A stretch of DNA of 64,000 bases from Pelagomonas calceolata. Lineage: Eukaryota > Sar > Pelagophyceae > Pelagomonadales > Pelagomonadaceae. The stretch is taken from positions 3,968,001 to 4,032,000 of the forward strand of contig CAKKNE010000004.1 in the NCBI GenBank assembly GCA_918797485.1, read 5' to 3'. A program made the translations under genes and the position numbers. The notes beneath the pieces are model-generated. The model was given only the letters and a program-made list of their open reading frames with translations, searched no databases and was not told the DNA's origin. Below, piece after piece: positions 4,656-63,851 of the stretch. Positions within the stretch are counted from its first letter, which is position 1. The number at the start of each line of letters is the position of its first letter.

Positions 4656-4679
4656 GCTAGTGTGTTACAGGCCGCTAGC
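4656..4679. promoter_or_regulatory. 24-nt GCTAG...CTAGC intergenic motif, copy 1
   Basis: Begins GCTAGTGTGTTACA and ends CGCTAGC. It lies between divergent genes, 161 bp before the cupin-DUF952 ATG and 141 bp before the S1-protein ATG. Confidence 0.6.
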
Positions 4680-4819
4680 TCTGAGAGGCTGCAAGCGAGG
4701 CCATTTGCGCCATAGCGGTGCACCAGGCCGCTAGGATCGAGGCTCTGATACGCTCTCATCGCGCTGTCGACGCTGCGCGAGCACGACGGCGCGTGCTGCC
4801 GCGTTTGGTTAGTGCAACC

Positions 4820-6056
4820 ATGCACCGCAGTCTGCTGCTCGCCTGGTGCGCCGTCGCATTCGTGCCGCGACGACCGCAGCGAGCACCGCTTTTAAAATGT
4901 GCAGCGAAGCCAAAGCCGCAGCCTGAAACACGCGAGCTCGAAACGCTCAAGGTCGGCGAGCGCGTCAGCGGCCCGCTCGTCGGTAAGGTCTTCCAGGGGA
5001 AGAGAGGAGTGAAGGCTTTTCTGGACGTCGGATGCGTCGGCAACAACAAAAAGCGCATCAATGGCATGCTGCGCCTGCCGCACTACAAGCAGTGGCGCAA
5101 CGGCACGGACGCGTACAAGCGGCTCACAAAGGAGCTGCGGGACGCGCGGCGCGGGAAGAGCGTGACCGCCTACGTGGCCGCCGTGCATGCGGCGTCGCAG
5201 CAGTTGGTGTTGGAGCCCTTCGCGAAGCCGCGGCCGCCGTCGCTCAAGCTGTCGCCAAGCCGCGTGGAAAGTAGCTTCGTATGGGCAACGTCGCGTCGAT
5301 GACATGTGACGCCCACGCAGGTCGGAGCTCGAAATAGGCACGGAGCTGCGGAACTGCCGCGTCGTCGGCATGACGGCAAAATTCGCCTACGTCGACACAC
5401 CCTGCTTCCACGACGGCGCGCGGTCGACAAAACCAAAGAGGCGGCTGCGCGCGCGGCTGGTGCTGCCGCCGACGATAGCGTTGGAGACGGCGCCGGTCAA
5501 GGCCGCGTCCATCGAGCGCATTCTGCGGCTCGACGACCTCGTGACGTGCTACGTGCGACGGCCAGAACCCGCGAGCGGGCGATTGGAGGTCGGCCTCGAG
5601 CCCGCGTCCTCGGAAACGCTCGCGAGCGAAGCGAAGGCGCGGGACGGCCGCCGCCAGGCCCGCGCACGGCGCGCCGCCGTTACAAAACGTCTTGAAGTCG
5701 GCCAGCGCTTCCGAGGGTCAGTCGTGCGGCGCCTCGCGTACGGCGCGGCCGTCGACGTCGGCGCTACGGGGCCGGGTTTGGTGTTGCGGGGCGAACGAGA
5801 CCGCGACTTCGTCGGCGTGGGCGACCGCGTTTCTGTGGAGGTGGCGGCGGTCGAAGCGCGCGACGCGGGGCCGCCGCGGTTGACGTTGGAGCTCGTCGTG
5901 GAAGACGAGGAGGACGACGCGCCGGAGCCTCCAAAACCAGCGGCGCCGCGGACGGCTCGGCCCGAGCCCGAGCCCGAGCCCGAGCCCACGTCGATGTTCG
6001 ACGACCTCGACGACCTCGACGACATCGAGGCGAGCCTGGGTTTGGACGAGTATTAA
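4820..6056 (+). CDS. Plastid-targeted S1 RNA-binding domain protein
   Basis: Exons are 4820-5250 and 5321-6056 (388 aa). The N-terminus (MHRSLLLAWCAVAFVPRRP) is a hydrophobic signal peptide followed by AF-V-P, the ASAFAP-like cleavage signature of secondary red plastids, so import into the plastid is inferred. Three S1-like OB folds follow: LKVGERVSGPLVGKVFQ..., LEIGTELRNCRVVGMTAKFAYVD and LEVGQRFRGSVVRRLAYGAAVDVG. The tail is acidic (EPEPEPEPEP, DDLDDLDDIEASLG). S1 proteins of plastids act in translation or RNA maturation; which one is not decidable here. The donor at 5251 gives KLSELEIGTEL and leaves an introner-like GCGTGGAAAGTA in the 70-nt intron. A donor at 5290 would also keep frame. 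Confidence 0.8.
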
Positions 6057-6299
6057 AAAAATTAATTAAAATTCGAAAATATTCGGGTATTTTCTCGCGT
6101 TTTTTTGGTGAGAACGGCCATTGCTCGACCAGAGTCGTGTGTTTGCATGGTTTCGTATTGCATACAAGCCCGCCTTACTTCGCTGCATGCTGCTCCATAA
6201 ATAACTGACCCTGGGAGCGAGGCAGGCTCCCCTGTGCAACAGTGCACTGTGCTGCTCCTGCGCGGCACGGCTCTCAAATCCCGCGATTAACCAATAGCG

Positions 6300-7703
6300 A
6301 TGCCGAAAAGAAGAAGTAACAGCCCAAAGAAGAAGCAGCAGCCCAAGGACCGGTCGCGCAGCCGCTCGCGCGACGAGGAGAACAACGGCACCAGCAAGAA
6401 CAGCAATAATCGGCTGCTGTTCGCAGCGGTGCTCGGCGCCGTCGCCGCCGTCACGGCCTACTACTGGCGCAATGACGCAGAAGACACGCCGTGGCAGCCA
6501 CGGCCCTCGGACGCGTACGCACCGCTCAAGAAAATAAGCGGCGTGTTGATTGAGGACTTCGTGCCGCAACGAATTATAGATGAGCTACGATACCAACTCA
6601 TGGACGCCGTCAACGGGACGTGCGCTGCGCCTACCATGGTCTGTTTTGATCCAGCGCGCGTCGACGTAGCGACGGGCGAGGCGGCGTCGCTGTTGCCGCC
6701 GTGGCTCGCGAACGCGACCGCGGCCGAGGTCGTAGAACGGCCGGGCGCGTCGCACTGCGTCCAGGGTATCAAGGAGGCCGACGCCCACGCGGCGACGGCG
6801 TCCGTGAGCTTTGTGTCATCTCGAGACGAGTTCGTCGCGGCGAAGGCTGTAGAAAGAGCGGTCCAGTCCGCCGTGGGCCTGCCGGGGTCGCACGGGCTCT
6901 TCCAGCAGCTTTTGTATTATCCGGAGGGCGCGCCGGGCTACGCATCGCACCGCGATTGTAGGGATGACGCGGCGGCGGCAGCCGCCGCGGCCGGCGGCGC
7001 CGCGCCGCAGGAGCGCGCCTTCACGACTTTGCTCTACCTATCGGACAACGCGAGTGGCGACACCGATTTTCCTACGCTTCGCGTTTCCATAAAACCGCGC
7101 GCCGGGCTCTTCGTCGCGTGGCGGAGCCTGAAAAACAGCAAGTGCGACCCCGCGTCGACGCACGCCGCGGGCCCAGTTCTCGTCACAGACGCGCCGAAGC
7201 TCGTGCTACAGCGATGGTACGAGCGCACTCCCTACCTACCGGGGCCGAACGCCCACGGCGAGCCCTGGACGCGCTGTAGCCTCGGCGAGGACGGTTCTGT
7301 TGATAGTTGTCGCACGTACTGCGCCTCGCAAAGGGCGCGCGCGGCAAGCGACGCCCTGCGCTTCGGCATGGAGGCCTTCACGGCCCACAAGTCCGGTCTA
7401 GACCCCGATGCGCGCGCGGCGGCCGTCGAAGCATTATCGGACGCGCTCTCTTTGCTTCCGGGCCTCTCGCTGGCCCAGGTCCTGCTGGCCCACGCGCTCT
7501 ACGACGGCGCCGAAATTGATGAAGCGCGCATCTGCGATTTGTGTGCCCGGTTCCTCGCCGACTACCCCTCTCTCAAAGGGGTCTCCGAGGACGCGGAGGT
7601 CATGCTCGAGGAGCTACAGTGCGACGGCGGCCTCGTCGAGCGGCACCGGTCCCTCGCGCTGCACGAGATCGCCGCGGCGCGCGGGCGGCCGCGAGCGGCC
7701 TAG
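6300..7703 (+). CDS. Prolyl 4-hydroxylase-like 2-oxoglutarate/Fe(II) oxygenase, membrane-anchored
   Basis: 467 aa, no intron. A basic Ser/Arg-rich cytosolic tail is followed by one transmembrane helix at about residues 39-56 (LLFAAVLGAVAAVTAYYW), giving a type II protein of the ER/Golgi. The P4Hc fold spans about 200-310. Visible ligands are H217 and D219 in ASHRDC, H288 in ASTHAAG and the 2-oxoglutarate-binding K300 in APKLVLQRWY. LLYLSDNASGDTDFP is the conserved core strand. Cysteines after the domain (WTRCSL, DSCRTYC) suggest a lumenal disulfide-rich tail such as a ShK-like knot. The role is probably hydroxylation of prolines in secreted or wall proteins; the substrate is unknown. An Ala run (residues 223-232) interrupts the domain. 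Confidence 0.85.
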   Translation: MPKRRSNSPKKKQQPKDRSRSRSRDEENNGTSKNSNNRLLFAAVLGAVAAVTAYYWRNDAEDTPWQPRPSDAYAPLKKISGVLIEDFVPQRIIDELRYQLMDAVNGTCAAPTMVCFDPARVDVATGEAASLLPPWLANATAAEVVERPGASHCVQGIKEADAHAATASVSFVSSRDEFVAAKAVERAVQSAVGLPGSHGLFQQLLYYPEGAPGYASHRDCRDDAAAAAAAAGGAAPQERAFTTLLYLSDNASGDTDFPTLRVSIKPRAGLFVAWRSLKNSKCDPASTHAAGPVLVTDAPKLVLQRWYERTPYLPGPNAHGEPWTRCSLGEDGSVDSCRTYCASQRARAASDALRFGMEAFTAHKSGLDPDARAAAVEALSDALSLLPGLSLAQVLLAHALYDGAEIDEARICDLCARFLADYPSLKGVSEDAEVMLEELQCDGGLVERHRSLALHEIAAARGRPRAA

Positions 7704-7728
7704 TTGTTTATAAATTATGTTGTGGGAA

Positions 7729-9005
7729 TTATATCTTCGGTAGCGCGCCGGCCGCCTTGTACACATTGACGAGGGCCTTGGCCCCCATTCGTTTCTTCTT
7801 CGTCTTCTTCTTGGGCGTTTTTGCAGGTTTGCAGGTCGGATGCCTGTAGCTGACGCTCCCGTCCGATGCTTTGGTCCCGACGCGGTCGCCATCGATTTTG
7901 TTGCCACACACAAAGCAGCTCGGCGCGTAGAGCGCCACCCAGCAGGGCTGACAGAACAGATATCCATTTTCCTCTTTTTTTCGCGCGTCGCCGGCGAGCG
8001 ACGTGCCGCACCCGCTGCACAGGAAGCAGGCTTCATGATACTTGCCGAGTTTGGGAACCTCGACGACGGCGCCGCCCCGGATGATCTTGGCGCAGCCGCG
8101 GCAGGTCCCGATGTCCCACTGTGTGGCGACGTCGGTCCGCGCGACGCGCGGCGGCGGGCCGTTCGTTTGCCGGGCGGCGATTGCGTCTTCATCGTCGTCG
8201 AAGCCCACGCAGAATTCGATGCACACAACAGTGCCAAAGGTCGCGTGCGCCCCCGCCCGCACGGCCGCCGCCTTCCACCGCGGATCGAAGACGCAGAGTC
8301 TATGGCCCCTATCCCGCACCTGTGTGAAAATCAAAATTTTACGGCACGTTCGTGCTGACGCGTCTACCTGCACGCCATCGACGCGACGCCTGCTCGATGG
8401 CGTGGCGGTGCCGGTTCCTCACCGCTCGACGGAGCCAGCACGGCCGCGCCGTCGCTGTGATATGACTTTGTGAAGAATTATCGGGTGCACCCGACACACT
8501 GGTTGATTTCCACACAGTCCCACACGCCATCATCAACAATGAGGTCTTCCACCACCTGAGCGCCCGTAGTAGCGCGCCCATACCAAATACACTCGCCGAC
8601 GGCTCCCTTCCACTTCCCGTAGCGCGTGGCCCTGTCCTCGGGCCGCGAGTCGTCGCCGCCGCGGTGCGACGCGACGCCCGCTCCGCCCACGTCGACCGCG
8701 TGGTCCTCGGCCGCGAGCTTCAGCCCTACGCCGGCCTCTGCGAGCGGGCACGCGGCCTCGCACTTCTGGAGCCATTGGATGGCGTCCTTGACCGCCGAGG
8801 CGCCTTCCTTGGTCTGGCGCGGCCGCGCGTTGCCGGGCGGCTGGTAGGTCTTGCCTTTGTATAGCGATGCACGCGTCGCGAGTCTCGTCGCGACGTCACT
8901 AGGAGCCAACCGTGCGGCCGACAAGGCGTCAAGAACTTCGGCTTCGAGCGTCTCCCAAGGCTTGTCGGCCGGTACTGTCGAGGTGTTGTCCACTGCTGGC
9001 ATCAT
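7729..9005 (-). CDS. CAP/SCP domain fused to a LIM zinc-binding domain
   Basis: Exons are 8526-9005 and 7729-8319 (356 aa). The first 210 residues form an intracellular-type CAP domain: LEAEVLDALSAARLAPSDVA, the paired helices, VVEDLIVDDGV then DRGHRLCVFDPRWKAAAV, AHATFGT and CIEFCVGF. The C-terminal 130 residues hold a LIM domain: CRGCAKIIRGGAVV..., YHEACFLCSGCG, YLFCQPCW, plus another CFVCGNKI pair. The tail is Lys-rich. No signal peptide is present, so it is probably cytosolic and acts in a complex rather than outside the cell. The 206-nt intron is an intact introner element; splicing at the target-site copy restores DDGV-RDRGHR, the family consensus. It is tail to tail with the P4H gene (25 bp apart). 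Confidence 0.85.
8320..8517 (-). mobile_element. Introner element A (198 bp) forming the CAP-LIM intron
   Basis: Ends are the inverted repeats CTGTGTGAAAATCAA and TTGATTTCCACACAG. It is flanked by 8-bp copies TCCCGCAC (8312-8319) and TCCCACAC (8518-8525). On the gene strand the donor GT lies in the first target copy and the acceptor CAG is the element end, so excision removes the element plus one target copy. The interior closely resembles element B at 11774, in the opposite orientation relative to transcription. Confidence 0.9.
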
Positions 9006-9171
9006 GATTTGTTCTCCCTCAGCTCATAATGTCAGGGCTGCCCTGAGCGATGGTTCGGCTGCCTTGAGCGGTGCACAGCGTGTCAGCAGTCACGAATGAA
9101 TGCCAGGATGAAATCGGTTCCAATGTGTACGAGTGCTACGCCGCACTGCAATGGTCAAGCTCTCCGTGAGT

Positions 9172-9195
9172 GCTAGTATGTTTGATACGCTAGAC
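9172..9195. promoter_or_regulatory. 24-nt motif, diverged copy
   Basis: Reads GCTAGTATG ... GATACGCTAGAC, weaker than other copies. It sits between the divergent CAP-LIM (ATG 9005) and GGCT (ATG 9348) genes. The rest of 9006-9347 shows nothing else. Confidence 0.4.
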
Positions 9196-9347
9196 TGTCT
9201 CTTCTGCGGCTAAGGCGCAAGTCTGTACAGGCCACCCAAGCATTGGCGGCAGCGTTCGACGCAACACCTACGTCACGCCAGCAACGCGACGCCGCGCTGG
9301 CGTCCGCAGCACTACTTACGCTGGCTTTGGTGCGCAGCACACGAGCC

Positions 9348-10502
9348 ATGGCCGCCATGACGACCGGGAGCCAACCCAAGGTGCTGGTATTCGGCTACGG
9401 CTCGAACGGAGTCGCGCAGCTTAGAGCGCGCTGCGCAAATCCAACGTTAACGCTGCGGCCGGCGCGCCTGCCCGACCACGCGCGGGTCTTCTGCCTCCGG
9501 AGCCCGCGCTGGGGCCAAGGTGGCGTCGCGTCGCTGGCGCCGGCCCCGAACCAGCACTGCCTCGGCAGCGTCGCCGAGCTTTCAGTGAAGGAGAAGGAGC
9601 TGCTCGACAAGTTCGAGAAGCCGGCGTACCGGGACGTGACCGTAACCATAGAGGTGCGGGGCGACGACGGTGCTTACATCCAAAGGCAAGCCATAGCTTA
9701 CGTCGGCGGTAGTGGTGAAGACGCCTTCACGCTGCCCTTCACGACGCCGCCGTCCGAGGCGTACCTCGTGGCGATCCGGTCCCACCTTAGGGACCACTGG
9801 GACGACGTCGATCAGATCGACGTGCGCTGCGCGGCGCGCGGCGCCGTCGCCCAGTGGAGCTACCCGTACCAAAACCCGACGCGCCTGGACCTGGCGTCGC
9901 TCTGCGTCGAGGTCAACGCGCGGCGCACGGCGCCGTGGACGATGCCCGCCGCGATCCGGCCGCGCTGCACGGCGCTCGTGGAGGCCGGCCTGACTACGAC
10001 GGCGGAGGTCGCCGCGGCGCTCTGCGACCGGCGAAGCGCGTTTTCCGCCGTGGACTGGGACGACGACGGCCTCCGGGCGCTGGCGCAGGTGCCGCTGCAC
10101 CGCGTTTTTGTCTACGGGAGTTTGTTGACGGGCCTGCACAACGCCGGCCGTCTCGCGGGAGCGCGCCTTCTCGGCACCGCGACGACGTTTGATGAATACG
10201 CGCTCCGGTCGGCGGGCGCCTACCCCTACGCCGTCGACGGCGCGGACGCGCCGGGCCTCTCCACCACCCCACTCGCCGGCGAGCTCTACGTCTGCTCGAC
10301 GGACCAGCTCGACCGCCTGGACGCGCTCGAGGACCACCCTTCTTATTATCAGAGAAGACGCGTACGGCTTCGGGGCGACGACGCCGAGGCCTGGATGTAT
10401 GTGCTGCGCGACGCCGGCGCGCTCGCAGAAATCCGGGCGCGGCCCGACGCCTACGCCGACGCGGCGGGCGACTGGCGCGCGTTTTTGGAGAGAAATAATT
10501 AG
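9348..10502 (+). CDS. Double gamma-glutamylcyclotransferase-like protein
   Basis: 384 aa, no intron. Two GGCT/AIG2-like beta-barrel modules are visible. The first opens with VLVFGYGSNGVAQLRARC and contains CLGSVAELSVKEKELLDKFE, like the glycine-loop and acidic part of ChaC/GGCT. The second opens with VFVYGSLLTGLHNAGRL and contains GELYVCSTDQLDRLDALEDHPSYYQRRRV, the pattern of gamma-glutamylamine cyclotransferases including the Glu before HP. The family releases 5-oxoproline from gamma-glutamyl amino acids, amines or glutathione, so a role in glutathione or peptide turnover is plausible. The two modules differ enough to have separate substrates. The ATG at 9348 is the first in frame; upstream sequence stays open only from a TTG. 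Confidence 0.8.
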   Translation: MAAMTTGSQPKVLVFGYGSNGVAQLRARCANPTLTLRPARLPDHARVFCLRSPRWGQGGVASLAPAPNQHCLGSVAELSVKEKELLDKFEKPAYRDVTVTIEVRGDDGAYIQRQAIAYVGGSGEDAFTLPFTTPPSEAYLVAIRSHLRDHWDDVDQIDVRCAARGAVAQWSYPYQNPTRLDLASLCVEVNARRTAPWTMPAAIRPRCTALVEAGLTTTAEVAAALCDRRSAFSAVDWDDDGLRALAQVPLHRVFVYGSLLTGLHNAGRLAGARLLGTATTFDEYALRSAGAYPYAVDGADAPGLSTTPLAGELYVCSTDQLDRLDALEDHPSYYQRRRVRLRGDDAEAWMYVLRDAGALAEIRARPDAYADAAGDWRAFLERNN

Positions 10503-24585: not shown

Positions 24586-24607
24586 GCTAGTGTCTTACAG
24601 GCCTAGC
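24586..24607. promoter_or_regulatory. 24-nt motif, copy 2 (22 nt)
   Basis: GCTAGTGTCTTACA then GGCCTAGC, preceded by a GCTT repeat. It lies 119 bp before the glycosidase-like ATG (24467) and 4 bp past the SDR stop. Confidence 0.6.
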
Positions 24608-25712: not shown

Positions 25713-25736
25713 GCTAGTGTCTTACATCACGCTAGC
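25713..25736. promoter_or_regulatory. 24-nt motif, copy 3
   Basis: GCTAGTGTCTTACA ... ACGCTAGC. It lies in the 230-bp divergent spacer between the SDR (ATG 25598) and the 2-oxoglutarate oxygenase (ATG 25829), about 100 bp from each. Confidence 0.65.
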
Positions 25737-29897: not shown

Positions 29898-30293
29898 GGT
29901 GTCTGACTTTGCACTCGTCGATCGATGCGCGAGCGCTTATATTGCAGGCTTGTCCTGTGAGTCTGCACTCGTCGATTCTGCGAGCGCTTGTGCAGCACTC
30001 GGTTGCAGTGGCGTGCTCTTTGAGCCCTCAAGCGCTGCGACCGCGTGTTCTTTCGCTTTGTAGCGCCTCTATACGACAAATTACTCGTCTCGGCCGAGTT
30101 CTGGCGCAGGTAATCACAGACCGCGCTGCTGTAGCGCTGCAAAGTCTGCACCTTGCTTGCTAGTGTCTTACACCGCTAGCTCGCGCGTTCCTAGACGCGT
30201 GGGAGCCATGGAAGCCGCGCCCCGGGGACGGTACCCCCTCAAATGCACCGCGGCTGAACCCCCCGTGGCACCAGACAGTCACATTCTACTCAA
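29898..30293. other. Intergenic, 396 bp, with direct repeats
   Basis: Contains two copies of a GCACTCGTCGAT...GCGAGCGCTT unit (about 29912-29939 and 29963-29990) and one 24-nt motif copy at 30159. It is the 5' region of the ERI1-like gene and the 3' region of the Rieske-like gene. Confidence 0.45.
30159..30180. promoter_or_regulatory. 24-nt motif, copy 4 (22 nt)
   Basis: GCTAGTGTCTTACA then CCGCTAGC, again preceded by GCTT repeats. It lies 262 bp before the ERI1-like ATG. Confidence 0.6.
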
Positions 30294-34200: not shown

Positions 34201-34737
34201 CGCTCTGCGCGCTAGCTGCACTCGACACCCTGTTGCAGCCGGCAAGCTCTGCCCCGACGACAGATTTCGTCCAGCGGTTGCGGCACTGATCGAGCGCCTT
34301 TTTATGTTGTCTCACCGTGCGCAAATGCTGCAGCGGTGGCGTTGTGGTCGTTTTTTGCTCCGGCCCTCCCCGTGAGCTAGCGGCCTGTAAGACACTAGCA
34401 ACAAGCCGCGTCGATCATTCGGGTTTTAAACCGGAACAAGGCCTCGGGACACGTGCAACACGAGTCCTACGGAGCAAATCAGGCGTCCATCGCCCAGCGT
34501 CAATAACTCTTGATTTTGCTGACTGGAGTTTCATTGCGCTCGCCACCCACGCGCCGCCGCCGCCCGGGAGAACGAACACTCCCGCCCGCGTTGTGGCTTA
34601 TAGCCGGAGACGAGACCTCTCGTCGCGGGGCGCCGCTCAAGTATATCTGCTGTCAAAGGAAGGCCGATTAAAAGCTAGCGCGGACGGTCCGGGCTCGCCA
34701 CCGCCCCAGGACTCGTCAGTAGTTGCTCCTCGTCGAA
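34201..34737. other. Intergenic, 537 bp
   Basis: Divergent spacer between the spermidine-synthase-like gene and the small gene at 34738, with a 24-nt motif copy at 34376. A frame on the plus strand is open from 34317 to 34862 but has no internal ATG and no protein character. Confidence 0.4.
34376..34399. promoter_or_regulatory. 24-nt motif, copy 5 (inverse orientation)
   Basis: GCTAGCGG ... TGTAAGACACTAGC; its reverse complement equals the commonest form of the motif over all 24 positions. Confidence 0.65.
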
Positions 34738-39370: not shown

Positions 39371-41043
39371 GGTATTTATTTGGTTTAAATGTTTTAGTTT
39401 TAACTCTGTTGCCTCGTCGATGGCGTCAACTAGTCACTTCGATGGGCGCGGGGTGCTCAGGCTCAGGCTAGTTACGTCGCAGGGTTCCCCGTACCCCTCC
39501 CGCTCCGTCCTAGTGTGTCGATACGCTAGATCACTAGGTCTTGCGGCGCGCCAAATTACACCAGCGATTAGCGCCGCCATCTACCGTCCAAATGGTACAT
39601 CATATCAACTCCAGCCCACTTTTCATCCACAATCGACGGAACCGGAGCCGACGGCCCGCGCTCGGAGGGCGGGAAAAGAATTCTACTAGACAACTCTCGC
39701 GTTTATGTTCGTTTCCTTCCGTTTGTTAGTGGTAGAGTCCATCCAGCCCGCCTCAACATTTACTGAGCCCAGTCTCCTGATCCGTACGAGCCGCGGGATT
39801 CGGCGACTTTGGTACCGCGCGTTTACATCAAGCCGAGTATCAGGGCTAGACCCGCGAATATCAGCGACGCCGCCACCCAGATGGACCATAACGCCGTTGT
39901 TCTATTCACGATCGACCGACTTGCCCGTTCTCCGCGGACGACGGTGCGTACGCGGGGCACTGAATTGGCCCCAGACCGGTGGATTATAAAATAAATTTGC
40001 GTTTCAGGCGCTTCGGTTGCGGGACGGGCCAGCTAATCGGCCTCAGCGTGTACTACATTGCTCAGAGACCCAAAGATGCTCGGCGCGGGTTGTCGGTCTC
40101 GCGAGCCCACGATCTGGTTTAAACGGGCAAACTGAGTGGATCTGCGGCCATCAGCCCGTGTACCATCACCATGGACCATGACGCGATCATTTGTTTCATG
40201 ATCGACCGACTTACGCGAGGTCCAGATCAAGATGTTCACATCCCGAGCGTGGGCAGCCCAAAGTACCCTTCTCGCGGTGTAGATGGCATATACTTGTAAT
40301 TGACTATCGGTGGGGTAGCATGGGGTCCAACGAGACCGCTACGGCGACTACTGGGGGCCCTCGGGTAATTGGCGTTTTTGACGGGAACGGGGCGCCATCG
40401 GGGCCAAATTACTTACTTTTTTTGGATACAGATCGGCTCCAGAACTCCCTCTGGGGTAGGTCTGGTAGTGGGTAGTCGCCTGTGCCGCAAACGCCATCGA
40501 TGCGGCGGCCTAGTGCTCTCGGAGAGCCCTGGAAGCAAACCAGGCCAAAAGATGGCTAAACCGAGTGGTCTGCTGAGAGAATTCGACCAAAAATGATTGA
40601 AGCGGCGGCGTATGCGGTGTAGGCGATTGCACGTGTATAGTACCGACCCTAGGCGACCCCAGGGACACTTATTGGGCAGGGATTGACAGGATTCAACCGG
40701 TGCGGCCGCCTTGGACCGTGGCGGCTCCTCAGCCGCGAATTAAAAAATTTCCTTTTTCGGCCCCCGGTACGTGTCCCATTGATCTCTTTGGACCAGTAGC
40801 GACCCGAACGGTGCTCAGACGACTGCATGTCGCATGTTGTATTCGAAAGCTAGTGTGTCTATGGAGCAAACTGTAAGAATTGTTGGAGGCTTGTTGGGCT
40901 AGATTTACCGCGCATTGTTGGCTAGAAAAGACACAGGAAGCTGTCACAGCGCCAAACGTCGCAGCGAACCTCGAAGAAGATCCATCGCTGCTACACCGGA
41001 CGTCTCCGCCGAGCGCGGGTCATCAGCGTGAAAGGCTGTGAAA
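39371..41043. other. Gene-poor region, 1.67 kb, with a diverged repeat
   Basis: Longest stretch without a gene, and visibly less GC-rich. Two related blocks, about 39880-39921 and 40174-40214, share ATGGACCAT-ACGC and CGATCGACCGACTT. Motif-like GCTAG blocks occur at 39510-39529 and 40849-40860. Short frames show no protein character. Possibly a decayed insertion; family not recognisable. Confidence 0.5.
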
Positions 41044-48585: not shown

Positions 48586-48911
48586 TTATGTGACGAGGTG
48601 TGTGCCGGCAGCGCGCTTTTGGCTACTCGGTGGCAGATGCTGCACAGCAAGAGATGATTAGTGGTGCGCCGGCAGCGCGAAATTGGTACTCCCGTGGCAC
48701 GCTTCGATAAATTCCGCACCGCAAGAATGCTTAGCGATGGTCTGCACTTTCGTACGACGGGTACGACGTCAAAAAGCTGGCGCTGCGGCAAAAAATCCAG
48801 CTAGCGCACTTGACACACTAGGCATCCCTAGGCTTTACGCCTCCGTGCCTTGTCTAGCCCTTGTCTAGCCTAGCCTAGCTACCCGAACAATCAAGACGCT
48901 TAGTTTTGGTG
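48586..48911. other. Divergent intergenic, 326 bp, with tandem duplication
   Basis: An imperfect tandem pair starts GTGTGCCGGCAGCGCG (48599) and GTGCGCCGGCAGCGCG (48664), about 65 bp apart. A 24-nt motif copy follows at 48800. A TAGCCTAGCC run precedes the F-box gene. Confidence 0.5.
48800..48822. promoter_or_regulatory. 24-nt motif, copy 6 (inverse, diverged)
   Basis: GCTAGCGCACTTGACACACTAGG; 90 bp before the F-box ATG 48912 and 215 bp from the LYR ATG 48585. Confidence 0.5.
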
Positions 48912-51082: not shown

Positions 51083-51519
51083 GGCTGCCCAATGCCCTAC
51101 GCGAGGCTGCCCACGAGGCTCTATACGTGCAAGCACGCTGCCCACAGCCCGCTGGGCAACGGCAGAGCACGTCAACGACGAGTAGCCCGCCGCAAGCGCC
51201 GAGCTCGGCGGAGAGCGCCAAGTTCGCAAAGGTGCCGCTGCGCGCGACGGTGTATGTGACTCGTCGCGAGGATCGGTCTCTGCGCGCGAAGAGACGTGCC
51301 GCAGGGACTCGACAGGCTCGCTCGACTGGGGAGCTAGCGTTGTAAGACACTAGTTTGAGCTCCATAGCGCCGGCAGCTGAGCCGGTCCAAGTGCTGCCCG
51401 GGCTGCGCTACCTGGCCGAGCGGAGCGTCCGCCGCCGAGACCCCATCCAAGGGCAGCTATCTGAACCCCTCACCCAGCAAAAGGACCAGGCAAAGACCAA
51501 TCAATACACCTAGGCCATA
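51083..51519. promoter_or_regulatory. Divergent intergenic region, 437 bp
   Basis: 5' regions of the coiled-coil gene and the WD40/EF-hand gene, with a 24-nt motif copy at 51333. The minus-strand frame is open upstream from a TTG, without protein character. Confidence 0.4.
51333..51353. promoter_or_regulatory. 24-nt motif, copy 7 (inverse, 21 nt)
   Basis: GCTAGCGT then TGTAAGACACTAG; 167 bp before ATG 51520 and 251 bp from ATG 51082. Confidence 0.6.
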
Positions 51520-55164: not shown

Positions 55165-55436
55165 GATTTTCGTGTCCTATGAATCCTGTCTCTCTTACGG
55201 TGCTGGGACTAGTTGGCGGCGCGCGCGTCGCCGATTTATCGGCGGCGGGCACGTGGGGACTAGTACTTCTTTTTCTAGTGTCTTACAGGCCGCTAGCTGA
55301 CGCGGCCGAGGCTAAATATTTACCAAGCTCCTTTGCTTAGAGCTAGGCCGCCTAAACCACCAAGCCACCGCGGGTTCTTATTAGCATTTCCTCTCGCTCT
55401 TGCGTCACACCCGCGCCGCCTCATAATTAATCAAAT
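55165..55436. other. Intergenic, 272 bp
   Basis: 3' end of the WD40 gene and promoter of the F-box/kelch gene; contains a 24-nt motif copy and otherwise nothing seen. Confidence 0.4.
55275..55297. promoter_or_regulatory. 24-nt motif, copy 8
   Basis: CTAGTGTCTTACA then GGCCGCTAGC, 140 bp before ATG 55437. Confidence 0.65.
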
Positions 55437-56814: not shown

Positions 56815-59430
56815 TTACGCCGCATGCACCGCCGGCGTCAGCCGCTCGTCGACGTCGAAGACCACCACCAGGGCCATGTGGTCCGACGGGAAGCGGTCGT
56901 TCGGCAGCCACGAGCCCCGGTTGGCGTCGATGGCCGCCCTGAACGCGCCCTCGAAGACGTCCTCGGGCATCGCCGCGAGCTTCGCGGCGTCCTCGATGTC
57001 CTCGGGCGCGATGTAGTGCTTGCGCTTCGCCGCCTCGCGGACGAACGTCGCGTCGTCAAACAAGACGCGGCGCTGCCGCGCGACGCGCACTCGCCTTATG
57101 ACGTCTTCGCCGTCCGACTCATCATCTTCATTCTTCGGAGGCGGCGCGAACTGACGCAGCCGCGGCACCGGCAGGTAGGCGACGGGCCGCAGCACGTCTT
57201 TTGAGAGAAAAATATAATCAACACAAGCCGTGCGGCGCTCGGCCGTCATCGTGTACGGCGGCTCGGAGCCCGCCGCCTGATTATAAGCCGAAAACAATCC
57301 TAAACGATTGTGTTCGGGCGGCTTGTTTATCACAGTTTCGGGCTCGTCCAATGATATCCTTTCTTTAACGTGGGGCTGCGCCGCCGGCGTAAGGTACTTC
57401 GGGTCCATCTTGAAGGGCGGCGGCCGGTTGTGCGACATGCCCGCACTGGCGGCGCGTTCCGGCGAGATCGCGAGGCGCTTCACACAGACTTGTGCTGTAG
57501 CGTTCGACACGTGCGTCGGCTCCGCTTCTACAGGGTGCGCGATCTTCCCTCCACAAATAGCGCAGTTACATAACGCTCTCACTTGCTCGCAGGTCCGCGA
57601 GTAGGCTGGTGTGGCGAACCTCGCGTTATGTCTCGGTGAGATGCCCGTCTTGGACGAAAAGGGGTGGTGCTTCTGGTCGTAATCAGCAAACTCCTGCGCT
57701 CGTAACGCCTCGTCCGTCGTCGCGAACCTAGCTTGCTGCCTCACCTCATGATCCGCCGACGCGAGGCGCGGGTCGATATCACCGTTATCCAAGGCTACCT
57801 TGACCTGTTCAAGTAACGCGAGCTGCTCGACGGCACTCTTCGCGCGCGACGCCTCTCTTGCAAAATTCTCATCCACCAGATTCGCTTCGCGAGCCGCGGC
57901 CACGGCGTGTTGTAATGAAAGCGACTCGCCGACGGCGTGCTTTCTTGCTACTTCCGACGGTCCCAACAACAATCGCGGCACGTCGGGCCCGCAGACCCGC
58001 AACTGCCTTAAATCTTCGGCGACCGTCAAGGGGTCCGCCTCCATTTCAGGTGCGGGCGCCGGCGCCTCTTTATCAAGGTCGTAGTAGTCGGGGATGTTTG
58101 CGCCATAAGCTTTTGTGGCGAAGGGCGCGGACGGTTCTGAGTAGGCGCCTAGTCCCAGCGACGACTCGCCCGCCACTCGAAACTCGTAGGCCACACCACT
58201 ACACAACCCGGCGACGACGTGCCTATATCTAGGGTCGCGCACGGTTCTTTTCTTCCTAGTTCCTGGCCTCAACACCGTAGTGTAGTGCGTACAAAGGTGC
58301 TCGTCCAAAATAAGGGGTTTGGACCATCCTAAAGTCGTATTCCCGCCAATCCGGTGCTGCACGTAGTAGCGCTCGACCGGCGGGTCCAATTTGGACGCAT
58401 CTACCACAGCAGGAAGCCAATATAAGACGGCCGTCGTCGGCGACTCGCCCACGTCACCCAACCCGATGCCGTCGGGCTCCAGCGTCGGGGGCGAGGGCGG
58501 CGGCCGCGGCGGCGCCGGGATCGGGAGCGGCCGGCCCGTCTCGAGCAACGCGTGCGCTTCTGAGTTGGGAGCGCCATGTAAGGTACAGCACAGGACCACG
58601 GGGTGCTGGAAGTCGCGGTTGAACTGCTCGATTTGCTCCGTGAGGTATTTTGTTTGTGTCCCGCGCACCGACTCTTCGGCCCGCCAGTTCGTGACTAATT
58701 CCCGCATCTGCTCGTCGCTCACGACGTCCCAGTCCTCGGCCGTCGGCTCGTACTGGTCGCCGGCGTGGCCGCCGGCGAGTTGCGTGCACGCTACGACTAA
58801 GGCAGCATCGTGTGTTGCATTGTTGAAGGGCACCAGATCCAAAATCATGGCGATTTCATCTCGAGCCGCACATCTGACCGCCGTCGACGCTCTTTTTGCT
58901 CTCTCTGCCGCTCTGTGTAGTTCAATGACTTCACTCCTTACTAATTGGAAGTGCATGCGCTTCCATCCGATCAGCACCCCATCCAGATCCTCGCTGATCA
59001 GATCCTCCTCGGCGTGGGCCTGGGACTTTTGTCGGGGCGCGTACATCGTATCGAAGCCCGCGGCGTTGAGGCCGGGCAGCCAGAAGCCGTGGTAGTCGTC
59101 GACGTCCTGCAGGCAGATCACATCGCATTCGTAGGACACTATTTCAGATAGTAATCGCTGCCTCCGGAAGCTCCAGGTCAAGGAAGACGGATGCGACTTA
59201 CTGTGCATGCCGTCGGCGTTGCATCTTCCCAGAACATTGTACGAGACAACTTTGACGCGCGACGGCGCCGTCTCGGGCGCGTCGGGCAGCCAGCAGAGCT
59301 TTCTCTCAAGGTCCGCATCGGGGTCTACAACGACGGGCTCCTCCGCCTCCTTCGGGGGCAGGAGCTCCGGTGGCAGCTCCTCGTTCTCGAAGCGCGCCTT
59401 CTTCAGCATGACGCGGTCGAGGAGGCCCAT
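56815..59430 (-). CDS. Degenerate CCR4-type EEP domain protein with inserted fibronectin III domain
   Basis: 871 aa, no intron. Residues 55-290 and 750-871 make a split endonuclease/exonuclease/phosphatase fold: VKVVSYNVLGRCNADG, SYECDVICLQDVDDYHGF, then at the end ACVDYIFLSKDVLRPV and FPSDHMALVVVFDV. Between them, at about 340-470, is a fibronectin type III domain (TTAVLYWLPAVV, YYVQHRIGG, GVAYEFRVAGESSLGLGAYSEP), then long helices. Several usual catalytic positions differ: LQE reads LQD, the GDFNS loop reads CTLHG, and ANTHL reads ACTQL. SDH is kept. Activity is therefore doubtful; a scaffold or RNA-binding role is likely (inference). The EEP assignment rests on motif order. Confidence 0.75.
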   Translation of the reverse strand: MGLLDRVMLKKARFENEELPPELLPPKEAEEPVVVDPDADLERKLCWLPDAPETAPSRVKVVSYNVLGRCNADGMHSKSHPSSLTWSFRRQRLLSEIVSYECDVICLQDVDDYHGFWLPGLNAAGFDTMYAPRQKSQAHAEEDLISEDLDGVLIGWKRMHFQLVRSEVIELHRAAERAKRASTAVRCAARDEIAMILDLVPFNNATHDAALVVACTQLAGGHAGDQYEPTAEDWDVVSDEQMRELVTNWRAEESVRGTQTKYLTEQIEQFNRDFQHPVVLCCTLHGAPNSEAHALLETGRPLPIPAPPRPPPSPPTLEPDGIGLGDVGESPTTAVLYWLPAVVDASKLDPPVERYYVQHRIGGNTTLGWSKPLILDEHLCTHYTTVLRPGTRKKRTVRDPRYRHVVAGLCSGVAYEFRVAGESSLGLGAYSEPSAPFATKAYGANIPDYYDLDKEAPAPAPEMEADPLTVAEDLRQLRVCGPDVPRLLLGPSEVARKHAVGESLSLQHAVAAAREANLVDENFAREASRAKSAVEQLALLEQVKVALDNGDIDPRLASADHEVRQQARFATTDEALRAQEFADYDQKHHPFSSKTGISPRHNARFATPAYSRTCEQVRALCNCAICGGKIAHPVEAEPTHVSNATAQVCVKRLAISPERAASAGMSHNRPPPFKMDPKYLTPAAQPHVKERISLDEPETVINKPPEHNRLGLFSAYNQAAGSEPPYTMTAERRTACVDYIFLSKDVLRPVAYLPVPRLRQFAPPPKNEDDESDGEDVIRRVRVARQRRVLFDDATFVREAAKRKHYIAPEDIEDAAKLAAMPEDVFEGAFRAAIDANRGSWLPNDRFPSDHMALVVVFDVDERLTPAVHAA

Positions 59431-59780
59431 TGTTTTTGTGGTGCTATCGGCTGCCCTGTCTGCGGTTCATGGTGTTGTGATCTAGGCTGCCCTGTAGCTA
59501 GACGTACGCCGCTCGGGCTTGCGTATGATCTCGGCTGCCTGGCCCGAGGTACGGGCGCGCCTGTCTGACCGTATGTGGCGCTCACCAACCTCGCTTAGCC
59601 CCAACGCCGCCGCCGCTAGCGTCATGTAAGGCACTAGCCTACAAGCTGTGTTTTTGCTGAAGTCTGTGCATAGCTCGAAATTAGAGTGTCTGAGGTACCT
59701 GAGCGCACGTTCTCAGCCCAGACGTCCAGTCTGATTTGTTCGTTTGATCTGTGAGCCCTTTGCGGCCGCGTACAGCTCTG
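59431..59780. promoter_or_regulatory. Divergent intergenic region, 350 bp
   Basis: Promoters of the EEP/FN3 gene and the secreted-protein gene; includes a 24-nt motif copy at 59615. Confidence 0.4.
59615..59638. promoter_or_regulatory. 24-nt motif, copy 9 (inverse)
   Basis: GCTAGCGTCATGTAAGG then CACTAGC; 185 bp from ATG 59430 and 143 bp before ATG 59781. Confidence 0.65.
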
Positions 59781-60419
59781 ATGCTCTCCCTGCTGTTTTT
59801 GTGCTCTGCTGTCGCGGATGCATTGAAATTCGACGGCGGAATCTCGCTTTCGCAACTCAAAACGCCGGCATTACTCGTTGACGTCGACGAGCTGCCCGGC
59901 GGCGTCGAGGCGCTGCCGCACGCACCACGCGAGCGACGAGAGGCGCTGCGAGACGCGCTATTTGTGCATGCGCGCGTCGTGGCCGCTGGCAAAGAGCGAG
60001 CCGGCTTCTACAAGGGCCGAGGAGCGCCGCTGGCCGAACTCGACGTCGAGCTCGCAGGCGATGCATATCTCGCGACGGGCTTAAACAACAATTGGTCCTA
60101 CGACAACAGCTACTTCTGGGCGCGCACGCTCGGCTCCGGCGCGCGACGGCCGGCGCCGGGTATTGGGTTGGACGCAATAGGCGACCGGACGGCGGTCCGG
60201 TGGCTCCGCGACGACGAGCCTGGAGCGCCGCAGACCGGCGACGGCAAATTCAGCGAGTGGGCGGAGTTTCTCGACGTCGGCGACGAGGTGGATTTGGTGC
60301 CCGTCGACGTCGATGCGTGGTTAGACCAGCACGACGCCGCCTACCTCGTGACCAGAGAAATGCGACCACCCGGCGCGGACCCGCTCGTCCGAGCAGAGCC
60401 CTGGGTAATCACAAGTTAA
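59781..60419 (+). CDS. Secreted protein, 212 aa, unknown
   Basis: Signal peptide MLSLLFLCSAVADA. The mature part has TPALLVDVDELPGGVEALPHAP, ALFVHARVVAAGKERAGFYKGRG, AYLATGLNNNWSYDNSYFWART and VDLVPVDVDAWLDQHDAAYLVTREM. It has no Cys pairs beyond the signal peptide, no membrane helix and no repeats. The fold looks alpha/beta; no family recognised. Its stop is 2 bp from the stop of the recycling-factor gene on the other strand, so their 3' UTRs must run through each other. Confidence 0.55.
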   Translation: MLSLLFLCSAVADALKFDGGISLSQLKTPALLVDVDELPGGVEALPHAPRERREALRDALFVHARVVAAGKERAGFYKGRGAPLAELDVELAGDAYLATGLNNNWSYDNSYFWARTLGSGARRPAPGIGLDAIGDRTAVRWLRDDEPGAPQTGDGKFSEWAEFLDVGDEVDLVPVDVDAWLDQHDAAYLVTREMRPPGADPLVRAEPWVITS

Positions 60420-60421
60420 AG

Positions 60422-61168
60422 TTAGTCCTGGCGCGTCTCGATGGCCTTCTTCTTCTCGTCGGCCAGTTTCGTAATTTTTTTCGAGGCCTCGTCGACCATC
60501 TCGTCGATCGCGCTCTTCTTCGCGCGGACGTCGTCCTCGGAGACGCCTCCGCTCGCCTTCTTCAGCCGGTCGTGCGCGTCCCTCCTATGATTCCGCGCGC
60601 GCTTCTTCGCCTCCTCGGCGGCGGCCCCGGCGGCCTTGGCCAGCGCGCCGCGCTGCTCCTTCGACGGCCGCGGGATCGGCACGACGACGTCGCCGCCGGA
60701 CACGTTCGGGTTCAGGCTGAGGCCCTCGATGTCGGCCACGGCCTTGGCGACGGCTGGCGCGAGCTGCGGGTCGAAGCACGAGATGCGCACCAACGTGGGC
60801 GACGCGACGGCGACGTGCGCGACCGTGGCGAGCGGCTGGCGGTCGCCGTAGGCCTCGACCGCGCACGCGTCGAAGAGCTCCGCGTTGACGTCGCCGCCGC
60901 GCATGGTTTTCAGAGTTGTCTCGAGCTGCGTTATTGTCTTGTCGAGGCCCGCTATCAGGGGCGCGTCGAACAGCTCGGCGAAGATGTCCACAGCGTCATC
61001 CGTCGCGGGCGCCGCCTCCACGGGTTGTTTGCCTTTCCCTTTTTTTTTCTTTTTTGCAAAACTGCGCTGCACCGTGGTGACGACGGGCGGTCGCCGCTGC
61101 AGACGCTGCAGACATGCGGCTGTTCGCGTCGAATGTTGCAGCAGGCGTGCCGTGCGTGCGAGCAGCAT
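60422..61168 (-). CDS. MRRF: Ribosome recycling factor, mitochondrial
   Basis: 248 aa. Presequence MLLARTARLLQHSTRTAACLQRLQRR, then a Lys-rich linker and the RRF fold. The long helix starts TITQLETTLKTMRGGDVNAELFDAC, domain II has YGDRQPLATVAHVAVASPTLVRISCFDPQL, and the hallmark PIPRPSKEQRGALAKAAGAAAEEAK...RNHRRDAHDRLKKA ends in GVSEDDVRAKKSAIDEMVDE. Together with EF-G it splits ribosomes after termination. The His/Arg-rich tip (RNHRRDAHD) that contacts rRNA is intact. The Lys/Arg presequence points to mitochondria rather than plastid, where a second RRF is expected. Confidence 0.93.
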   Translation of the reverse strand: MLLARTARLLQHSTRTAACLQRLQRRPPVVTTVQRSFAKKKKKGKGKQPVEAAPATDDAVDIFAELFDAPLIAGLDKTITQLETTLKTMRGGDVNAELFDACAVEAYGDRQPLATVAHVAVASPTLVRISCFDPQLAPAVAKAVADIEGLSLNPNVSGGDVVVPIPRPSKEQRGALAKAAGAAAEEAKKRARNHRRDAHDRLKKASGGVSEDDVRAKKSAIDEMVDEASKKITKLADEKKKAIETRQD

Positions 61169-61449
61169 TGTCTGGAAGGCAGCACTCGAGTGTTATCGAT
61201 CTCAAGAGCTTGCAGGGCGTGCCAAGCTGTTTTTGCATTATTTGTGCTATCTAGCGAGACAGAGGTACTAGAGCATAGCCGGCGCTGGACGGCGCTGTGC
61301 TGGTACTGCGTGATTACGTCGCGAGAACAAGCTTGGGTGAGCGATGGGGTTCAGGCATCGTGCCCGACGACGGTACTGAGCGCGGGCAGCCGAACGAACC
61401 GCTGCGTAACTCATACAGACCACCTACGCCACCGACGCGTGAGTAAACG

Positions 61450-61893
61450 ATGAACGAGGGCCGCCTCAAGGAGTGCTGGGAGCGGACGAAGGACAACGGC
61501 GTACTGTGTCGGGCGGGGTGCATCATTTGCATCATGGCCCCGTGCATCGAGCCGTGTCTGTTCTGCTGCCCCGCGGGCGAGCCCATTAAAATTGAACGGG
61601 AGGATCCGAACCGTCCCGACTGGCTCGTGAAGATCCCGAACCCGGACTTCCCGAAGAAGGCCCTGTGGGCCATCGACGAAGGGGCCTGTAGGGACTGGGA
61701 GATGGGCAAGGACATGAGCAAGTGGGAGCGCAAGTACGCCCCTAAAAAGGAGGTCAAGATCGCACCAGAGCCGGAAGAAAAAGAAGATATTTCGAAATTA
61801 TCGCATTACGAGCGGCGGAAGCGCGCGATCCAGGCCGGGCATGAATTAGGAGTGAACGAGGGCGCGACGGACGACCAGGTAACGAGTGGGTAG
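61450..61893 (+). CDS. Small Cys-rich N-terminus protein, 147 aa, unknown
   Basis: The start MNEGRLKECWERTKDNGVLC is followed by a hydrophobic Cys cluster (AGCIICIMAPCIEPCLFCC). This could anchor the protein by palmitoylation or form a short membrane insert. The rest is soluble: REDPNRPDWLVKIPNPDFPKKALWAIDEG, DWEMGKDMSKWERKYAPKKE, and a charged helix (DISKLSHYERRKRAIQAGHELG). Tryptophan and Pro are frequent. No family recognised. An ATG preceded by AAACG fits a start context; an upstream exon cannot be excluded. Confidence 0.55.
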   Translation: MNEGRLKECWERTKDNGVLCRAGCIICIMAPCIEPCLFCCPAGEPIKIEREDPNRPDWLVKIPNPDFPKKALWAIDEGACRDWEMGKDMSKWERKYAPKKEVKIAPEPEEKEDISKLSHYERRKRAIQAGHELGVNEGATDDQVTSG

Positions 61894-62023
61894 TTTTCAC
61901 TTTATCCCGGGTCCTTCCTTCGCACGAGTACTTAGAACGTGCGTCGCGCGGGGGGAGCGCGGGGAACTGTTGGCTGGGATCGGTCCAACGGGACTTGGGG
62001 GGATAGGGCTCAGCCGCTCAGCC

Positions 62024-62365
62024 TCAGCGCGTCTTGCGCTTGCTCTTCTTCTTGCTCTCGCCCTTGTACGCGGCCTTGAAGAGGCCGGTACCTAAAACGG
62101 CGCCGAGCGCGGGGCCGGCCCAGTAGACGGCGATGGTCGCGGACTTGCCCGCGACGACGGAGAGCATGCTGACGGCGGGGTTGAATGCGCCGCCCGAGAC
62201 GCCGCCGACCGTCGCCGCGGCGACGACGACGGCGAAGCCGATGGCGATGCCGAAGTAGTCGTTGTCCTTCGTGTCGTCGACGGTGGCGACGGAGAGCACC
62301 GTGAAGCAGAGCAGCGCCGTGCCGACGAACTCGACGAAGAGCTTCTGTTGGAGCGACGGAGCCAT
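62024..62365 (-). CDS. Half-size aquaporin (single MIP hemidomain), 113 aa
   Basis: QKLFVEFVGTALLCFTVLSVAT is an aquaporin TM1/TM4-type helix, FGIAIGFAVVVAAATVGGVSGGAFNPAVS the next helix plus the NPA half-helix, and ATIAVYWAGPALGAVLGTGLFKAAY the third helix with the WAGPALGA signature of TM6. This is one complete hemidomain; full aquaporins have two (about 250 aa). The tail is basic (KGESKKKSKRKTR). Such a protein would need to dimerise to form a pore, or may be non-conducting. No first half is seen in 800 bp on either side, and the gene is bounded by ATG 62365 and a clean stop. Confidence 0.8.
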   Translation of the reverse strand: MAPSLQQKLFVEFVGTALLCFTVLSVATVDDTKDNDYFGIAIGFAVVVAAATVGGVSGGAFNPAVSMLSVVAGKSATIAVYWAGPALGAVLGTGLFKAAYKGESKKKSKRKTR

Positions 62366-62719
62366 CAGTGTGGTTTTAGAGCTTTCTGGGCTTGTGACGA
62401 CGGTGAAGCGCGGGCGATTTTGCGCGCGCGGAGGTTCTCGATAGCTTTTTGCTGAGACTGTTTCTACTTTCCGGCTTTCTCGTGGCTAGCGAGCGAGCGC
62501 GGGCGACCGGCAAATGAGTGAATAGATGCAACGACGCGATGGACGCGCGCGGGCGATGTTTTGCGCAAGCACGTGCGCCCAAAAAGCCCAGTGAGAGTGG
62601 CATGAATGGTGAGCCCCAGCTCGGGGAGACGCCGCATTTATACAACAGGCGCATTAGTCGCGCACTAGATATTGACAAACTCATTAGTTCACACAGCAAG
62701 AGAGAATCGAGCGACAGTC
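62366..62719. other. Intergenic, 354 bp
   Basis: 5' of the half-aquaporin and 3' of the selenoprotein gene. No additional exon or missing aquaporin half is seen on either strand. Confidence 0.4.
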
Positions 62720-62779
62720 GCGCGCGGGGTCGGGCGCCCGGAGTTTCGAGAACCTCCGGGCGCCGTCATGGACGCGCAC
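62720..62779 (-). promoter_or_regulatory. SECIS-like hairpin after the selenoprotein stop
   Basis: On the gene strand: helix I GTGCGCG pairs with CGCGCGC. Inside it ATGAC (62765-62769) faces CGAC (62729-62732), giving the UGAN/NGAN quartet. Helix II is 11 perfect pairs (GGCGCCCGGAG / CTCCGGGCGCC) with a 10-nt loop GTTCTCGAAA. The loop's A run is on its 3' side rather than the usual 5' side. It starts 8 nt past the stop codon. Confidence 0.65.
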
Positions 62780-62787
62780 CACGTCGC

Positions 62788-63411
62788 TCACTTCTCGACG
62801 CTGACGGCCTCGACGCCGACGACCGTTTCTATTTCCGGCAGGGCGGCGAGCAGCTCCTCCGTCGGCGGGTGGTCGCCGATCTCGGCCTCGGCGTGGGCGT
62901 AGTACGGCTTGCCGCCCGTCTGTACCACATAGACGCCGCCGTGGACAAATCCCTCGCCGTCCAAATTACCTTTGTCGTCCTTGGCACGCTTGGCATTCTT
63001 GGAGAGGCGCGACCACGGGTTGGCAATCTTGGCCAGGACCGACGCCAGAGAGCTCTTGTTGGCCTTGCCGCCGCCTAAGGCGTTGTAGAACGCCCGCGGC
63101 TCGTCGAGGTACACAGGCGCGTCGGGCCAGCAGTAGTCACGGAAGGCCTGGACCTCGCTTACCTCTGCCCCGTGAAATGTTTTGTCCTCCTTGACGATGG
63201 CGTGTAGCTGAGCGCCCTTCGCCTCGAAGTCGCTCTTCCGCGCGTAGACCCGCTTGGCCTCCGCGCGGCAGATATGTCAGCCGGGGCGTCGCGCGACGAA
63301 GATGACCGCCGACGACTTCGCCCAGAGCTCCGACGCGGCGAAGGTGCTCTTGTGGCCCGTGAGGTCCACTAATAGAGCGCTGCCCGGCGGCGCGAGGGGG
63401 GCTTTCACCAT
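62788..63411 (-). CDS. SELENOU: Selenoprotein U (PRXL2/FAM213 peroxiredoxin-like), in-frame UGA
   Basis: 207 aa counting Sec. From ATG 63411 the frame runs SALLVDLTGHKSTFAASELWAKSSAVIFVARRPG, then UGA (63277-63279), then HICRAEAKRVYARKSDFEA to stop 62788, with no other break. RRPG-x-x-x-C-R is the active site of the PRXL2/SelU thioredoxin-fold family, where human FAM213A has Cys and fish SelU has Sec at the UGA position. So UGA encodes Sec45, paired with Cys48. Downstream AFRDYCWPDAPVYLDEPRAFYNALGG is the family's second conserved block. It is likely a thiol/selenol reductase in redox control. A SECIS-like hairpin lies directly after the stop, and EEFSEC is encoded at 37285. Confidence 0.88.
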
Positions 63412-63851
63412 GCTGCTAAGCGTGCGGGCGGAGAGGACGCGCGCCGTGACGGTGTGAGGCAAGTTCCCAGAGTGTCGAGCTGTGGCACCGGACGGCAAGA
63501 CAGGGCGCAGCCGCAGCGGTGCTCTACAAGCCGTGGAGGTCTCCTAGCAGCGGCGCGGTCACACAGAGCCCTGCACTCTGCTGTGTTCGCAATGCAAAAA
63601 AAAACGCGTCATTGATAATCGCGCTAGCGTCATGTAACACACTAGAAAATCAAGCCAGCTGCTAAAAACGAGTCGTAGCGCGCTGACGCAGGTTAGCGTT
63701 GCACGAAGGACGCCCTAGAGGGACCTCATCTTGTAGACTTGCCCCATACGGGAATTACAATTGTCTCCGACCGCCGTAGCAGCAGCGCCAGCAAAGGCTC
63801 TCCGACAGCCACCAAGAGAGCAAGCCGCGCGCGATCGTACGCATCCACACT
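63412..63851. promoter_or_regulatory. Divergent intergenic region, 440 bp
   Basis: Promoters of the selenoprotein (minus) and an EF-hand gene (plus), with a 24-nt motif copy near the middle (63623). Nothing else seen. Confidence 0.4.
63623..63645. promoter_or_regulatory. 24-nt motif, copy 10 (inverse)
   Basis: GCTAGCGTCATGTAACACACTAG, 212 bp from ATG 63411 and 207 bp before ATG 63852. Confidence 0.6.

Follow-up and report, generated by a model that had tools for sequence, protein, structure and literature searches.

What role does a short, nearly palindromic sequence play when it recurs in spacer after spacer between the genes of an alga? The question is raised by a 64,000-nucleotide stretch of the genome of Pelagomonas calceolata (hereafter the window), in which a first-pass annotation had listed a 24-nt motif, GCTAG...TTACA...CTAGC, and regarded it as a major promoter element or factor site of the lineage. 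The species, a tiny alga, is described as one of the most abundant eukaryotes of the ocean (PMC9481584; PMC13284251), and the assembly of strain RCC100 is reported to hold six nuclear contigs of 32.4 Mb with 63% nuclear GC, together with one plastid and one mitochondrial contig (PMC9481584). The window has a GC content of 62%, and its long open frames with Pfam matches include a flagellar CFAP46 protein and a eukaryotic selenocysteine elongation factor; a scan with bacterial settings found no tRNA gene in it.

Anatomy and abundance of the element

The element is present as described in outline, but not as one fixed 24-mer. It is bipartite and made of two unequal halves, GCTAGTGTSTTAC and CGCTAGC, which are separated by a spacer of 0-6 bases (usually 4), lie on either strand and span 20-26 nt in total. 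The left half reads (T)T-GCTAGTGT[C/G]TTAC and the right half CGCTAGC-T; the earlier description of conserved outer GCTAG/CTAGC and inner TGTSTTACA needs amending, as the inner TGTSTTAC is part of one half only. Copies were collected with an iterated gapped weight matrix, retaining hits from 13 bits up and counting those of at least 18 bits, in a 314-kb sample composed of the window, C1:1.0-1.2 Mb and C2:2.00-2.05 Mb. Among the 58 copies counted, the spacer measures 4 bases in 35, 3 in 9, 2 in 7, 0 in 4, 5 in 2 and 6 in 1. The halves are rarely solitary: matches fell within hits for TAGTGTCTTAC in 27 of 27 cases, for AGTGT[CG]TTACA in 30 of 31, for CTAGTGT[CG]T in 43 of 51 and for CCGCTAGC in 31 of 37.

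All eleven good copies of the first-pass annotation were recovered with scores of 21-37 bits, one of them shifted by a single base (55274), while its two partial copies met different fates: the one at 39510 is a variant, palindromic around a TCGA core, and the one at 40849 is a left half only, which gave no hit (Table 1). The variant represents a palindromic sister class with the core RTCGAY. Its pattern, CTAGYRTRTCGAYANNCTAG, has 93 and 91 matches on the two strands genome-wide, against none for the control; among the matches listed the strands mostly share the same places, which gives about 95 sites in the genome.

Table 1. The element and its weaker forms in the 64-kb window, with predicted gene context and weight-matrix score
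Feature	Position	Strand	Context	Score (bits)
Element copy	4656..4679	+	Divergent spacer	35.5
Element copy	9172..9194	+	Divergent spacer, upstream of GGACT-domain gene (Pfam)	21.1
Element copy	24586..24607	+	Same-strand (--) spacer	26.2
Element copy	25713..25736	+	Divergent spacer	36.7
Element copy	30159..30180	+	Same-strand (--) spacer, upstream of RNase_T-domain gene (Pfam)	35.7
Element copy	34376..34399	-	Divergent spacer	36.7
Palindromic variant, core TCGA	39509..39530	+	Same-strand (++) spacer of 1,681 bp	17.4 (under 18-bit count cut)
Element copy	48800..48822	-	Divergent spacer	26.9
Element copy	51333..51354	-	Divergent spacer, upstream of WD40 (WDR3-like) gene (Pfam)	31.5
Element copy	55274..55297	+	Same-strand (++) spacer, WD40 and Kelch genes either side (Pfam)	34.8
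Element copy	59615..59638	-	Divergent spacer	32.7
Weak copy, absent from the first-pass annotation	61250..61272	-	Divergent spacer	13.3 (14.3 without spacer penalty; under 18-bit count cut)
Element copy	63623..63646	-	Divergent spacer	33.5

Such an abundance is far from chance. In the whole genome scanned (32,445,274 bases in 8 contigs) the strict 24-mer occurs 776 times (382+394 on the two strands), and the same pattern read backwards 0+0 times; the loose palindromic pattern GCTAGN{4,16}CTAGC is found at 3518 places, against 796. The 314-kb sample has 58 hits scoring 18 bits or more, against 0 in three order-3 Markov simulations, and 64 scoring 13 bits or more, against a mean of 1.3. Scaled by length, 58 copies in 314 kb correspond to about 6,000 in the genome; if the strict form is used for the scaling, with 11 copies in the sample out of 776 in the genome, the total is about 4,100. 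We thus estimate all copies at about 4,000-6,000, and the gap between the two scalings implies that the sample is somewhat copy-rich. A 409-kb stretch of contig C1 (G000:C1 2,518,527-2,927,312) holds no strict copy, against about one per 44 kb among the C1 matches listed, and may coincide with a low-GC centromere-like region. Neither the strict nor a looser pattern had a match in viral contigs, a set that may lack records very close to the window's genome.

The information carried by the element amounts to 31.3 bits, or 29.6 after spacer uncertainty, for the 58 copies, and to 29.8 and 27.9 bits, respectively, for the 64-hit set. About 14 bits are enough to single out 4,000-6,000 sites, and the roughly 30 bits of the element are twice that. 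Factor sites usually carry less, and neither this content nor a spacer length that differs by as much as 6 bases would be typical of a single rigid dimer; the twofold excess raises the question whether two recognisers share the element.

Placement between divergent genes

Genes were called with our own seven-state coding HMM, trained on the same DNA and built without an intron model, so that gene edges are approximate; its strand agrees with all 8 frames of the window that have Pfam matches, out of 18 frames scanned, the other 10 being unmatched. By these calls, none of the 64 hits lies in the 238,734 coding bases of the 314-kb sample. The original statement that the copies lie between genes holds, and the opposite case that it had envisaged, copies equally common in coding DNA, is contradicted by a count of zero in 239 kb.

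The distribution among spacers is markedly uneven. Copies of at least 18 bits occupy 40 of the 70 divergent spacers in the sample (57%, a share that may exceed the genome mean in a copy-rich sample), 16 of 112 same-strand spacers and 1 of 69 convergent spacers. Counted as copies, 41 lie in divergent spacers, 1 in the 69 convergent ones and 8 in each of the two same-strand classes (54 and 58 spacers). The window agrees with the earlier remark that the motif is often found in divergent spacers, 8 of its 11 good copies being divergent and 3 same-strand. A role at convergent 3' ends was rejected on the single copy in 69 such spacers. Because convergent spacers are short (median 90 bp), the comparison was redone at 150-600 bp, where 35 of 57 divergent spacers hold a copy; the share is lower both in convergent spacers (1 of 17, P 5e-5) and in same-strand ones (14 of 58, P 7e-5).

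Within divergent spacers, the element is central and mostly single. Its relative position has a median of 0.51 and a standard deviation of 0.14, against 0.29 for a uniform distribution, and its mean distance from the spacer's middle is 50 bp, against 111 bp for random placement, a value that none of 20,000 draws reached. The median distance to the predicted gene edge is 211 bp. One copy is present in 39 divergent spacers, two in 1 and none in 30, although two or more would be expected in 8.4; of the 30 without a copy of at least 18 bits, 10 have a weak copy, defined as one that outscores 99% of the coding controls (more than 4.0). Placement follows no rule of orientation: 36 of the 58 copies lie on one strand and 22 on the other, and in same-strand spacers the element has the orientation of the genes in 7 cases and the opposite one in 9. 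Genes with and without the element (62 and 48 genes) do not differ in codon bias, GC3 or gene length, and no link to expression level, as judged by codon bias, was seen.

Poly(dA:dT) tracts close by are a feature of general-regulatory-factor sites. An A5 or T5 tract lies at most 40 bp away from 21 of the 41 divergent copies, against 7.4 for random positions (at most 15 in 1000 draws). The tracts are nevertheless not denser in spacers with the element, at 2.49 per kb in divergent spacers with it, 2.17 per kb in those without it and 2.71 per kb in long convergent spacers.

In the 314-kb sample, two further words recur in spacers. One of them, GGCTGCCC/GGGCAGCC, is present in 24 of 70 divergent spacers, where 4.6 were expected. 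In spacers with the element GGGCAGCC faces outward 24 times and inward 9 times (P 0.014), and in those without it 13 and 10 times (P 0.68), which weakly supports GGGCAGCC as an outward-facing companion word of the element. The word ACGCCATC/GATGGCGT, found in 47 of the 181 same-strand and convergent spacers (4.6 expected), probably marks introner elements; among same-strand spacers of at least 150 bp, the element occurs in 2 of the 20 with ACGCCATC, taken as introner-like, and in 13 of the 46 without it.

Conservation in a diverged relative

A motif scan of the genome contigs of 84,980 prokaryote species returned four contigs, all of them in metagenome-assembled genomes labelled bacterial. These contigs (L034, L035, L036 and L037), filed under Spirochaeta or a proteobacterium, are 80-96% identical to the window's genome over matching blocks, and we take them to be misfiled or chimeric pelagophyte nuclear DNA, wholly or in part. 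The MED672 bin, like the two bins with ERR5990xx names, presumably comes from Tara Oceans. Contigs L035 and L037 (Spirochaeta MED672) show synteny with the alga, their main blocks being 80-94% identical to it in DNA; L039 and L043 share the bin of L035, and L036 comes from another bin, with one matching stretch of 339 bases. Contig L034, which is 90-96% identical to the alga at 2043-3615, was excluded from the conservation count.

The relative has 11 copies of at least 18 bits on these contigs, of which 10 were compared irrespective of spacer class: five on L035, two on L037 and one each on L036, L039 and L043. For nine of these ten, the orthologous stretch in P. calceolata has a counterpart scoring 18 bits or more; the sample is small and was found through the motif itself, and the base rate of a copy in any divergent spacer is 57%. 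The exception is L035:461, opposite which only a degenerate CTAG-CTAG remnant is left. Alignment superposes the copies in five of the nine cases (L035:4290, both on L037, L036 and L039), and L036, being nearly identical throughout, adds little to the evidence. At L035:2202, L035:7635 and L043 the copies occupy the same stretch, were displaced by insertions or deletions and were paired by us. At L035:5352 and its counterpart L048:226, the two lineages carry the copy in opposite orientations at the same place, with 22 of 23 bases alike when turned. A template switch between inverted arms can flip the sequence they enclose, and would account for this single case.

In the eight pairs of like orientation, the motif is identical at 170 of 185 positions (92%, a value inflated by the recognition of counterparts through a matrix match), while the 40-bp flanks agree at 199 of 320 (62%) and 144 of 320 (45%) positions, over an unrelated baseline of 0.38. 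A second conserved block (GATTCATGCGTGCA...CTAGCGCT...) lies on one side of the element at L037 ~2770-2827 and in its orthologue L051, in a spacer otherwise diverged. In addition, a repeat of about 130-160 bp adjoins two of the five copies on L035 (299-455 and 2050-2173); it recurs many times in the window's genome (39 of the 47 matches listed) and is absent beside the P. calceolata counterpart of one of the two L035 copies. With the contigs of this relative, conservation can now be tested in pelagophyte metagenome bins.

A candidate organiser of divergent promoters

The element occupies the middle of more than half of the divergent spacers sampled and has persisted in a related alga whose surrounding DNA changed, so it probably serves as a landing site from which two promoters are set up together. 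We propose that it is a DNA site in the middle of divergent promoters, where a bound factor would open the chromatin between two outward core promoters, and give this reading a probability of about 0.6. A sequence-specific factor, either a single long recogniser or a pair of proteins bound next to each other, would bind the element and, together with the A/T tracts, keep the spacer free of nucleosomes; the open spacer would then serve both core promoters at once, in the manner of the yeast factors Reb1, Abf1 and Rap1. The absence from sampled coding DNA, the near-absence from convergent spacers, the centring, the singleness, the A/T tracts and the retention amid diverged flanks all fit such a shared-promoter organising site, and our working model is that the element may act like a general regulatory factor site. 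Several points weigh against it: 30 of the 70 divergent spacers have no copy of at least 18 bits, genes with and without the element are alike in codon bias, GC3 and length, the information content and the variable spacer are unusual, A/T tracts are not denser where the element is present, and the orthologue sample is small. The first-pass proposal of a major promoter element or factor site thus gains support from the lack of coding copies, the tie to divergent spacers and their middles, and the conservation in a relative; the word promoter in it we infer from position and conservation. A broader version would have the centre of most divergent promoters in the genome marked by a single lineage-specific factor, or by a two-protein complex that reads both halves, with the element as a near-universal single-site organiser of bidirectional transcription that carries twice the needed information and can flip in place without loss; this version is tentative, and we place it somewhat short of an even chance.

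The same features would also suit an insulator or roadblock between divergent genes, whose factor would mainly block transcription or activation invading from the other promoter rather than open a promoter. Its central position, mostly one copy per spacer, the lack of an orientation rule and the rarity in convergent spacers agree with this, and Reb1 has been proposed as a roadblock that limits divergent non-coding transcription (PMC7618759). Yet 16 of the 58 copies lie between same-strand genes, where an insulator would not be needed barring unseen antisense starts, and we consider this role unlikely, even if sequence gives no means of telling it from promoter opening. The element could instead be an initiator-like core promoter proper, with the basal machinery firing both ways from a near-palindrome that is central to more than half of the divergent spacers examined; the median of 211 bp to the predicted gene edges would then imply long 5' UTRs for both genes, which makes this quite improbable. 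Core promoter elements, moreover, are not known to carry as much information as the element's 30 bits.

Thousands of similar copies with inverted arms, in either orientation, call to mind a mobile element or repeat (a tiny MITE, an introner end or a preferred insertion site) that gathers in insertion-tolerant divergent spacers, and both the copy inverted at the same place in the relative and the repeat beside two of the five L035 copies could be read that way. However, target-site duplications of 3, 4 or 5 bases were found at 0 of 58 copies and those of 2 bases at 4, against 2.7 expected; the flanks 9-48 bases away are unrelated, with none of 1,653 copy pairs reaching 60% on either side. Copies also hold orthologous places in the relative with mostly diverged flanks, and single central placement is unlike random insertion. 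Lacking target duplications and shared flanks, a transposon origin is disfavoured and very unlikely. The slimmest chance goes to an RNA hairpin formed by GCUAGUG and CGCUAGC within 5' UTRs or unstable upstream transcripts: its arms can pair with one G-U and its loop varies in length, but in 25 of the 58 copies the outer bases do not form a standard pair and no compensating pair is seen, same-strand spacers show no strand preference, and the site sits in the middle of divergent spacers and not close to one gene. The hairpin was disfavoured on the lack of compensating arm changes and of a strand rule, and Rfam at its gathering score gave no match in the window, L035 or L037.

The earlier statement that no description of the motif was known agrees with literature searches on pelagophyte and stramenopile promoter motifs, in which none was found among the papers listed. 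Term searches for 'motif', 'promoter' and 'palindrom' had no match in the main text of the paper on the P. calceolata genome or of two subsequent studies of the species; the five papers that contain one of four literal motif strings concern, by title, neither the P. calceolata genome nor its promoters, and no promoter-motif description was found among the matches listed for nucleosomes and methylation in Aureococcus. With its 30 bits and its presence in more than half of the divergent spacers sampled, the element offers a handle on promoter organisation in a compact stramenopile genome, and could serve as bait for its putative factor and as a marker for promoter annotation.

In animals, sites for ZNF143, NRF1, GABP, BANP and DREF (DRE) are common to head-to-head housekeeping genes. 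The TRTCGAYA core of the palindromic variant seems to us reminiscent of DRE, and the main class, by our reading, has no ZNF143, NRF1, GABP, BANP or DRE core. Within pelagophytes, introner elements are described as introns of about 210 bp (PMC9481584). They share with our element the same genome and a high copy number, but the latter measures 20-26 bp, is intergenic and has no target duplications.

The closest known systems are the sites of Reb1, Abf1 and Rap1 in yeast, to which we take the element to be unrelated in sequence. According to one yeast study, polyadenylation-site regions from which divergent transcription units start are enriched in the Reb1 motif; the study also carries the proposals that Reb1 recruits remodellers and so creates nucleosome-depleted regions, and that Reb1 and Abf1 arrange the nucleosomes lying between two initiation complexes (PMC7618759). 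Rap1, for its part, is described as repressing divergent starts whatever the orientation of its motif (PMC6602560). Like these sites, the element lies between divergent genes, follows no orientation rule in its placement and has A/T tracts nearby, the tracts being weak evidence of kinship since A/T-rich motifs also occur in the random control group of the yeast study (PMC7618759). Unlike them, it is longer, at about 30 bits, tolerates a spacer of 0-6 bases and belongs to a stramenopile alga, not a fungus.
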